64,000 bases of DNA from Cyclobacteriaceae bacterium (GTDB taxonomy: Bacteria > Bacteroidota > Bacteroidia > Cytophagales > Cyclobacteriaceae), in contig JAEUUJ010000005.1 of assembly GCA_016786495.1 (NCBI GenBank), positions 1 to 64,000 on the forward strand, given 5' to 3'. Numbering within the stretch: the first letter of the stretch is position 1; the number at the start of each line of letters is the position of its first letter. The position numbers were made by a program, and so were the translations under genes. Shown in pieces: positions 62,592-64,000 of the stretch. The notes under the pieces were generated by a model. That model was given only the letters and a program-made list of their open reading frames with translations. It was not told where the DNA came from and made no database searches.

Positions 62592-63020
62592 TTAATAAAA
62601 TCCTCGTCCACTCATGTAAATCCCTAACAGGATCAAAAGGAAAGCGATCAGGTTAAAAATAAATACACGTTTGTGTTTGGCTGCGGCAGTCGGCAGTTTT
62701 TTTGACGTAATACGCGCCATCGTAATCAACACAACCGCGATGAGCATGATGGTAAGGTGCTCCACAGTCCAGTACCGGGTAAGACTGTCTTTCATGGTTG
62801 TTTCGCCAAATCGCACTTGCGGACTAACTACATACAGGATCAAGCCCAGTAGCAGTTGAATATGCGTGGATATGAACAGCGACAGGTTGAGTTTATTGTC
62901 GGTATTCGTGTAGTCCTTTTTGCCCAGCCAGCCGGCCAGCGAGGTGACGATCACCACAATTAATAAAATGAGTACAACAAACCGGAGGTAGGAGTGTGTC
63001 GTGAGTAACGCTTGATACAT
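62592..63020 (-). CDS. four-span membrane protein, cytochrome-b-like
   Basis: 142 residues with four spans: FVVLILLIVVIVTSLAGWLG, LFISTHIQLLLGLILYVVSP, LTIMLIAVVLITMARIT and RVFIFNLIAFLLILLGIYM. Histidines near spans one and two (TTHSYLRF, THIQ) and in VEHLTI and KHKRVF sit where heme ligands could be, which explains the usual cytochrome-b label; heme binding is not proven. It lies 17 bp upstream of the OmpA-type gene on the same strand. Confidence 0.75.
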   Translation of the reverse strand: MYQALLTTHSYLRFVVLILLIVVIVTSLAGWLGKKDYTNTDNKLNLSLFISTHIQLLLGLILYVVSPQVRFGETTMKDSLTRYWTVEHLTIMLIAVVLITMARITSKKLPTAAAKHKRVFIFNLIAFLLILLGIYMSGRGFY

Positions 63021-63105: not shown

Positions 63106-63113
63106 TATTTTTG
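63106..63113 (+). promoter_or_regulatory. -7-like promoter box before the channel homologue
   Basis: TATTTTTG matches TAnnTTTG and lies 15 bp before the ATG. A TTTC at 63081-63084, about 21 bp further up, could be a weak -33 element. Confidence 0.5.
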
Positions 63114-63128
63114 ACAATTCCCTAAACC

Positions 63129-64000
63129 ATGAAGCGATTTATCCCACTTTTAGTGCTGATTTTGACTCCATTCCTGCTTTTCGCGCAGGACGACTCAGAA
63201 CCCCGGCCCGACACCGTGACCATTGGCGCCTACACGATCAGTATTCACGACATCGATTTCCACAACAAGGAATACACAACCCGATTTTGGTTATGGGTTC
63301 TGTATAATAATAATGACAAGTTCGATTTTCCCAATCAGCTCGACATCCCCAACGCGAAATCAATCGACAAGCCAGAGGTGATTTCAGATACCGTAGATAA
63401 TCGCGTGTGGCAGTTGATGAAAATGAAATGCGTGATGAAACAAAACTGGAAGGTGAAGGACTTCCCGTTTGATCAGCAACGTCTGGTGTTACATGTAGAG
63501 AACTCAATTTATGACCGGAACAGCCTCGTGTTCGTTCCGGATGAACTGGGAAGTACGTACGACCGCGAGCTTACGCTTGACGGCTGGAAAATCACAGACT
63601 TCAAAGTGACCACGAGCAACAGTGAGTACACTACCGTGTTCGGTGACCCGAGCAGCGACATGCTGCATTCGGAATACGCGTCATTCAACATTGAGATCGA
63701 CATTGAACGGAACGCATGGGGCTTGTTCATGAAAATTTTTATTGGCATGTACATTGCGTTCATGATTTCGGTGCTCAGCTTTACAACACAACCGACAGAA
63801 CTCGAACCCCGGTTTGGATTACCGGTGGGCGGCTTGTTTGCTGCCGTGGGTAACAAATACATTATTGACTCGCTCCTGCCCGAGTCATCGGCCTTCACGC
63901 TGGTAGACTCGTTGCATGCTGCAACATTCCTCGCCATTTTCTCAACCCTGTTGGTGTCGGCCGTTTCGCTGCGGTTCCATTATAAGGGCAATGTAAATAC
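63129..64000 (+). CDS. pentameric ligand-gated ion channel homologue, 5' part
   Basis: 290 codons are visible and the gene runs off the window. A signal peptide (RFIPLLVLILTPFLLFAQ) is followed by about 175 residues of beta-rich extracellular domain. WKVKDFPFDQQRLVLHVENS at residues 107-126 is the Pro-loop of pLGICs (the Cys-loop without cysteines, as in GLIC and ELIC). Span M1 is about 198-217 (IFIGMYIAFMISVLSF), M2 about 229-247 after EPRFGLPVGGLFAAV, and M3 about 259-282 after the LPESSAF loop; M4 would be outside. It should form a gated ion channel; ligand and ion are unknown. Confidence 0.8.
   Translation, partial: MKRFIPLLVLILTPFLLFAQDDSEPRPDTVTIGAYTISIHDIDFHNKEYTTRFWLWVLYNNNDKFDFPNQLDIPNAKSIDKPEVISDTVDNRVWQLMKMKCVMKQNWKVKDFPFDQQRLVLHVENSIYDRNSLVFVPDELGSTYDRELTLDGWKITDFKVTTSNSEYTTVFGDPSSDMLHSEYASFNIEIDIERNAWGLFMKIFIGMYIAFMISVLSFTTQPTELEPRFGLPVGGLFAAVGNKYIIDSLLPESSAFTLVDSLHAATFLAIFSTLLVSAVSLRFHYKGNVN

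Follow-up and report, generated by a model that had tools for sequence, protein, structure and literature searches.

A channel gene at the end of the window

The window, the whole 64,000-nucleotide stretch of DNA that was analysed, ends inside a gene that almost certainly encodes a member of the pentameric ligand-gated ion channel (pLGIC) superfamily (Table 1). The reading frame that starts at 63129 is still open at the window end, with 290 residues inside the window; on the window's own contig (81,684 b) it continues without an internal stop to a TGA at contig base 64088. The sequence-only reading, made earlier from the letters of the window, had called for the contig to be followed past 64000, and this extension showed that the fourth transmembrane helix (M4) is encoded, corresponding to the helix at residues 289–318 in the AF2 model of a relative of equal length. 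The 319-residue protein has a single match at E ≤ 0.01 in its own 4.0 Mb genome. Divergent to the gene lies one for a membrane protein of 142 residues, apparently with four helices as read from the letters. On the other side, the next ATG on the same strand starts one base past the channel stop and opens a gene for an Amidohydro_3 protein (2.8e-26) with a signal-like N-terminus, resembling N-acyl-D-amino-acid deacylases. The channel gene leads this same-strand pair, in agreement with the earlier proposal that it is a first gene. Farther along the contig, past the window (L001:3906-6910, contig 66405-69409), lie two neighboring genes of glycoside hydrolase family 30, and the genes beside them resemble a SusD/SusC pair, as read from the letters; this is likely a polysaccharide utilization locus.

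The octamer TATTTTTG fits the pattern TAnnTTTG, which we take to be the Bacteroidota-type −7 promoter element, and ends 15 b before the ATG. Of 85 family starts, 23 have the pattern in the 70 b before them, compared with a mean of 3.6 and a maximum of 9 for shuffled upstream sequences; these are related starts called by a simple rule (a GTG start was assumed for the second L023 copy) and do not represent 85 independent events. Across the 64-kb window the pattern is not enriched, with 36 matches against 43.6 expected. The element before the ATG and its enrichment before family starts support the earlier claim that the gene carries its own promoter.

To compare the protein with its relatives, we fetched loci with six peptide patterns, one of which (VGNKYIID) lies in M2. 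The search confirmed 127 relatives in named genomes, and the best 80 of the 127 were kept; all of their titles name Bacteroidota taxa, and 75 are metagenome-assembled genomes (MAGs). The working alignment, A1, holds 52 of the 85 family proteins: a filter at 82% identity kept 54, from which four were removed (L001; L036 and L055, both for long N-termini; and L054:4148, because it is cut short) and to which L003 and L004, which share 93% identity, were added. A 68-residue piece from L069 was left out of the family set; at that locus (L069:4844-5902) the pLGIC frame is split into two overlapping pieces of 327 and 68 residues, indicating a pseudogene or an assembly error. Residues 1–20 are the most variable segment of A1, with a mean entropy of 2.46 bits. 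Between the window protein and L003, which has the same length and is 91% identical, dN is 0.055 and dS is about 2.0 (saturated), and the gene is under purifying selection. With this ratio, the 127 relatives and the fold match over the entire model, the reading of the frame stands far above chance.

Table 1. Positions of the channel gene, its parts and its neighbors, and of the tandem pairs in related loci. Row counts refer to A1 unless another set is named.
Feature	Position	Strand	Basis or remark
142-residue membrane protein gene	62592-63020	−	divergent to the channel gene
−7 promoter element (presumed)	63106..63113	+	TAnnTTTG
pLGIC subunit gene	63129..64000 in the window, on to contig base 64088	+	319 residues in total
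Signal peptide (putative), residues 1–20	63129..63188	+	read from the letters alone
β2/loop D R52, W54, W56	63282..63296	+	52/52 rows each; expected to face the ligand pocket
K98, loop E	63420..63422	+	52/52 rows; GLIC R105 position
FPFD Pro-loop tip, residues 112–115	63462..63473	+	F/Y, P and D 52/52 rows each
E124, loop B	63498..63500	+	gapless alignment with ELIC chain residue 131
Loop C motif YTTVFGD (Yx[TS]x[FY]G), residues 167–173	63627..63647	+	family alignment
R194, pre-M1 arginine	63708..63710	+	52/52 rows
M1, residues 197–219, kink proline replaced by G206	63717..63785	+	model of L003 and A1
M2, E−2' to S20' (EPRFGLPVGGLFAAVGNKYIIDS, residues 226–248)	63804..63872	+	ungapped alignment to GLIC
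L250-P251, M2–M3 loop	63876..63881	+	52/52 rows each
M3, residues 258–285	63900..63983	+	helix in the L003 model
Tandem channel pairs in relatives	L023:4051-5942, L033:4064-5945, L044:1055-2961, L054:3045-5014	same strand within each pair

Fold and conserved residues of the pLGIC superfamily

The sequence-only reading had named the protein a pLGIC homologue and proposed a search with the two Pfam profiles of the superfamily. By this strict test the protein falls just short: PF02931 gave 23.1 bits for the whole protein, narrowly under its curated cut-off of 26, and PF02932 was unlisted for the window fragment (E ≤ 10), for the whole protein (E ≤ 0.01) and for any of the 52 relatives; fold and conserved residues support the assignment instead. 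PF02931 matches 50 of the 52 relatives at E ≤ 0.01 (best 9e-8), and its shortfall on the window protein reflects the limited sensitivity of the profile and not the structure of the protein. The absence of PF02931 matches in the window's own genome is uninformative alone, since 14 control genomes also gave none. Two NCBIfam models, LIC (7.4e-12) and LGIC_1 (9.8e-11), also match the 319-residue protein, both under their cut-offs.

Comparison with solved chains gave a consistent picture. With the 290-residue window fragment as the query, the best PDB match by phmmer was 4yeu (2.8e-5), an ELIC/GLIC chimera according to its molecule names, followed by ELIC chains from 4.8e-5, 6fl9 (1.4e-4), and GLIC and glycine receptor chains at about 1e-3. 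We take 6fl9 to be sTeLIC, a further prokaryotic pLGIC; DeCLIC is absent from the best 60 of the 119 matches. The A1 profile matches GLIC chains at about 1e-11, mostly over positions 65–308 of 313, and hhalign aligned it to a GLIC segment at 95.8% and 7e-9. Other weak profile matches were set aside as chance or membrane-helix similarity, namely DUF998 in 20 of the 52 relatives (best 6e-5), UFC1 in six, Expansin_C in one, and an NCBIfam microcin C permease model over residues 247–311 (8e-4, under cut-off). Two patterns run against viral_contigs matched 60 times without a single confirmed relative, and thus gave no sign of a viral origin.

The structure was modeled for L003, as an AF2 monomer, with a mean pLDDT of 85.5 and a pTM of 0.73. 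After a beta-rich domain, the model shows four helices at residues 197–219, 225–249 (M2), 258–285 and 289–318. Foldseek gave 1108 matches in the PDB (E ≤ 0.001), and every one of the 50 listed is a pLGIC. The top match, a GLIC chain, scored 1.6e-20 with TM values of 0.78/0.80 over 319 columns, at an rmsd of 5.5 and 16% identity. On this model, the predicted spans form the four-helix pLGIC fold, and the topology proposed earlier (a signal peptide, a beta-rich domain, M1, M2 and M3 in order, and an LP-containing loop, here at 250–251) agrees with both the sequence and the model.

The conserved residues point the same way. Table 1 of PMC4795631 gives seven hallmark positions of the superfamily, and six of them are present in each of the 52 rows of A1, the exception being the M1 kink proline. 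In FPFDQQ (residues 112–117), F112, P113 and D115 fit the [F/Y]PxD motif of the β6–β7 loop, in which P is found in 100% and D in 93% of the superfamily (PMC4795631). The β9 aromatic is W153 in 52/52 rows (superfamily: W 71%, F 16%, Y 11%), and the pre-M1 arginine and the M2–M3 loop proline, P251, are kept in 94% and 88% of the superfamily according to the same source; P251 is present in all 52 close rows and missing in three of 29 distant ones (L103, L110 and L112). Position 0' of M2 is R or K in 51/52 rows and position 9' is F in 52/52, the superfamily values being 79% basic at 0' and 75% Leu or 13% Phe at 9' (PMC4795631). At the M1 kink, G206 stands in place of proline in 52/52 rows, a known substitution at a position where proline is not strictly required, since this source lists Pro in 77% and Gly in 5% of the superfamily; the 29 distant rows have Gly in 16, Pro in 12 and Thr in one. 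No cysteine pair of the animal Cys-loop type flanks the Pro-loop in the 319-residue sequence, as the sequence-only reading had observed, and Cys-less Pro-loop receptors have been noted for bacteria (PMC4795631). The full-length fold match, together with six of the seven hallmarks, bears out the homology and rules out the reading of the frame as something other than a pLGIC.

With GLIC, the proton-gated channel of Gloeobacter violaceus, the window protein shares the whole-chain fold, the lack of Cys-loop cysteines and of an extra N-terminal domain, Glu at −2', the M2–M3 proline and a short M3–M4 loop. It differs from GLIC in its low identity, in the M1 glycine where GLIC has proline, and in the loop C motif, which the GLIC segment lacks. 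DeCLIC, as far as its description goes, is a prokaryotic pLGIC with an extra N-terminal domain, unlike the window protein.

A sporadic and under-annotated subfamily

The gene belongs to a distinct bacterial pLGIC subfamily that is under-annotated. Among 395 Bacteroidota genomes, the A1 profile matches 24 (E 1e-5), whereas PF02931 gives only two matches at 1e-3, both over the cut-off; of these two genomes, G271 also has an A1 match, whereas G140 does not. The standard Pfam model therefore mostly misses the subfamily. Within the window's own family, A1 matches 26 of 196 genomes, comprising 21 strong matches (best E <1e-148) and five weak or distant ones (G439, G537, G553, G563 and G575). Given these counts within the family and the phylum, the channel gene is sporadic. 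Relatives that are 25–34% identical also occur in PLSDB, in eight Azospirillum records and two Streptomyces records, where they are annotated as hypothetical protein, carry no feature, or lie in an unannotated record. For comparisons beyond the close family, we used 29 profile-found rows, most from the 395 genomes and four from plasmids.

In a tree, the window's group falls together with the Azospirillum and Streptomyces relatives (31 rows in all; SH-aLRT 96), and GLIC, ELIC and the G140 protein lie outside this set. This placement is tentative because the tree is a quick one in which long branches meet. A second divergent pLGIC group was seen in Bacteroidota of family code f18 with genomes of 1.9–3.3 Mb (L097-L104 and L106); it has L9', mostly F13', the M1 proline and the same loop C motif, and none of its genomes is among the two of 395 that are PF02931-positive.

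We recognized no paper describing the subfamily, in a literature survey judged mostly from titles and the openings of abstracts, with most subscription journals outside its scope. From the same phylum, a pLGIC, Chut0841 of Cytophaga hutchinsonii, has been reported (Tasneem et al. 2004, PMC549065); we liken it to the window protein by description rather than by sequence, and it may or may not share the subfamily. The MCP-N/Cache-fused form that this source gives for Cytophaga differs from the window protein, in which only the signal peptide precedes the ligand-binding domain.

A candidate ligand pocket

Several residues that are expected to line a pocket between subunits are conserved well beyond the close family. 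R52, W54 and W56 presumably belong to loop D, by alignment to nAChR/GABA-A receptors. All 28 distant rows that cover the tryptophan positions carry W or Y at 54 and W at 56; R52 is not kept outside the close family, within which it never varies. K98, placed at the GLIC R105 position by counting from the Pro-loop in an ungapped A1–GLIC stretch, is K or R in 26/28 distant rows. Position 124 is E in 52/52 rows of A1 and E or D in 28/28 distant rows with a residue there. The loop C motif ending in D/E occurs in 84 of 85 family rows and, without its last residue, in 29/29 distant rows. Both the acid at 124 and the loop C motif persist in the Azospirillum and Streptomyces relatives.

The closest functional parallel is ELIC, the amine- and GABA-gated channel of Erwinia/Dickeya, which is also among the best sequence matches of the window fragment. 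The window protein shares with it the acid at Glu131, the FPFD loop and an Asp early in M3. The agonists of ELIC are primary amines, with the bound amine near Glu77 and Glu131, and mutants of Glu77, Glu131 (alanine), Phe133, Tyr174 and Phe187 gave no response (PMC3119659). The parallel has limits. The position of Phe133, residue 126 here, is mostly T or S in the 52 rows, which leaves the aromatic box incomplete; the ELIC segment lacks the loop C motif, and the register of loop C against ELIC is ambiguous owing to gaps in the phmmer alignment. By analogy with ELIC, our reasoned guess is that the ligand would be an amine or a zwitterion.

A predicted glycine-rich pore

The sequence-only reading had pointed to an unusual, Gly/Ala-rich M2, and this is borne out. 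The stretch concerned, GLPVGGLFAAVGNKY (residues 230–244), falls in M2 by an ungapped HMMER alignment to the transmembrane part of GLIC, and we took the prime numbering from GLIC PDB titles such as H11'F and F14'A. The helix reads E−2' P−1' R0' F1' G2' L3' P4' V5' G6' G7' L8' F9' A10' A11' V12' G13' N14' K15' Y16' I17' I18' D19' S20'. In GLIC, the lumen-facing M2 positions are 2', 6', 9' and 13', occupied by T, S, I and A; the window protein has G, G, F and G. ELIC has Q2', T6', L9', A13' and F16', counted back from the M2–M3 proline because the alignment is gapped in ELIC M2. If these positions face the lumen as in GLIC, the pore is expected to be mainly glycine-lined with one ring of phenylalanine, and this ring at 9' is the likely gate.

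The oddity is real, but it is not peculiar to a single gene, being near-invariant across the close relatives. Gly at 2', 6' and 13' and Phe at 9' are almost unvaried in the 52 rows, and 16 of the 21 positions from 0' to 20' are invariant. Mean entropy is 0.05 bits in M2, compared with 1.26 in the extracellular domain and 2.07 in M4, and M2 is the lowest of 271 21-residue windows of A1, although this near-invariance arises partly by selection, with one of the fetch patterns lying in M2 and the best 80 of 127 loci kept. Outside the close family the conservation relaxes, as the 29 profile-found rows vary: G2' with F9' is found in 19 (G6' in 16 and G13' in 14 of these), and L9' in 10. The lining is thus unusual, as had been claimed, yet the candidate gate Phe 9' and Glu −2' are both present.

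For ion selectivity we infer a preference for cations. Against this, E-P-R at −2'/−1'/0' is neither classic selectivity motif. According to the part of PMC4795631 that treats it, the −2' to 0' region is generally insufficient to predict selectivity in prokaryotes. The acid at −2' is missing in 4 of 27 distant rows with a residue there.

Proposed mechanism and alternatives

We propose that the gene encodes a Cys-less pLGIC in which an amine- or amino-acid-like ligand opens a Phe 9' gate to cations, and we hold this whole chain to be rather more probable than its failure. The signal peptide would place the beta-sandwich ligand-binding domain in the periplasm, and M1–M4 would hold the channel in the inner membrane. 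Five copies, presumably a homopentamer because the genome holds a single gene, would form a ring whose pore is built by M2. A small ligand would sit between subunits, its positive group held by E124 (loop B), Y167/F171 (loop C) and W54 (loop D), with K98 (loop E) as a possible partner for an acidic end. The signal could then pass from the FPFD loop through a salt bridge to R194 and on to the LP loop between M2 and M3, opening a pore formed by the Glu ring at −2', the glycines at 2', 6' and 13' and the Phe ring at 9' as the likely gate; the resulting cation flux would alter the membrane potential or local ion levels. Counting against the chain as a whole are the PF02931/PF02932 shortfall, the M1 glycine, the partial aromatic box, the ambiguous loop C register and the Foldseek rmsd of about 5.

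A GLIC-like channel gated by protons, in which protonation of acidic or His residues (H263 in M3, D260, Glu −2') would open the pore and the pocket would bind only modulators, is an unlikely alternative: GLIC is the best profile and fold match, and H263 and D260 are each present in 52/52 rows. What tells against it is the pocket, whose acid at 124, aromatics and loop C motif are kept across phyla and would be needless for a proton gate alone, and whose loop C motif is absent from the GLIC segment.

It is more doubtful still that the protein is a non-conducting sensor with a pLGIC fold, signaling through a partner, with M2 kept for helix packing rather than permeation. The M2 glycines, P4' and the top conservation would also suit tight packing, and few polar side chains would lie along the pore, but Glu −2', Arg 0' and a bulky 9' residue agree with conducting pLGICs, and no constant partner gene appears among the 80 loci. 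The 142-residue protein, which has no Pfam match above cut-off, is adjacent in 48/80 loci and within three genes in 62/81; of the 196 family genomes, 160 contain a homologue of it, far more than the 26 with a channel match. We dropped it as functional evidence because most of its homologues are in genomes without such a match.

The remaining neighbors, named from one representative per cluster with genes called as simple longest ORFs, do not single out a ligand for the proposed amine- or amino-acid-gated channel. An Amidohydro_3 gene lies directly downstream in 4 of 80 loci; other same-strand downstream clusters are CinA (10), penicillin amidase (9), cysteine-synthase-like (5) and SGL-like (4), and in 28/80 loci the next gene, for a D-Tyr-tRNA deacylase, is on the opposite strand. 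In 18/80 loci the gene just upstream, on the channel's own strand, is of an S9 peptidase cluster. Because the downstream enzyme varies among relatives, it does not name the ligand. That the channel senses D-amino acids released by the downstream deacylase-like enzyme is very unlikely: the enzyme adjoins the channel stop and other amide-bond hydrolases (penicillin amidase and S9 peptidase) adjoin relatives on the same strand, but the amidohydrolase itself is rare at these loci, its place elsewhere being taken by CinA, cysteine-synthase-like or opposite-strand genes, such hydrolases are common, and the associations maybe reflect only about three independent events.

A different setting was found in Azospirillum sp. 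B510, where CheW and MCP genes come after a relative on the same strand, at spacings of 19 and 28 b. This arrangement is in line with the chemoreceptor role proposed for bacterial pLGICs in PMC549065. A mechanosensitive channel gene follows this row on plasmid pAB510b (L111:3779-8738). No CheW or MCP neighbor was seen beside the window's channel gene.

Tandem subunit genes in relatives

In 4 of 81 loci (L023, L033, L044 and L054), two channel copies lie head to tail on one strand. The stop-to-start spacings are 2 b, 1 b, a 4-b overlap and 167 b, which leaves a gap of no more than 2 b, or an overlap, in three of the four pairs. The upstream copies are 70–82% identical to one another and the three complete downstream copies 67–74% (that of L054 is cut by the contig end and stands outside A1), with 57–62% across types. 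Fifteen positions are fixed differently between the four upstream and the three downstream copies, including loop C residue 170 and the M2–M3 loop residues 254, 255 and 257. The MAG SZAS TMP-66, which may be mixed, has four pLGIC members on three contigs (L033 twice, L067 and L079). Bacterial forms have been expected to be homopentameric, since most carrier genomes hold one copy (PMC549065). The sequences of the tandem pairs hint at heteromeric bacterial pLGICs, to which they are the best lead. A bolder reading, which we regard as speculative and probably wrong, would make the subfamily a separate class that mostly escapes the standard Pfam model, with a wide glycine conduit, closed by one Phe 9' ring, that may pass larger or organic ions; in some relatives, two closely spaced subunit genes of ancient divergence would form the first prokaryotic pLGIC heteromers.

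Significance

The gene product is a bacterial member of the superfamily to which the nicotinic and GABA receptor channels of the brain belong. Structural work on human neurotransmitter receptors uses prokaryotic pLGICs as models, but few are characterized and little is known of their natural roles. The conserved odd pore and pocket of this branch offer new tests of which M2 residues are needed for gating and conduction. Its physiological role is approachable by gene deletion, since 5 of the 80 loci come from named non-MAG strains, such as Chryseolinea serpens DSM 24574 and Pseudochryseolinea flava SDU1-6. Through the tandem pairs, ideas on how heteromeric receptors arose can be tested in bacteria; if heteromers do form, subunits would not have first diversified in animals or other eukaryotes.
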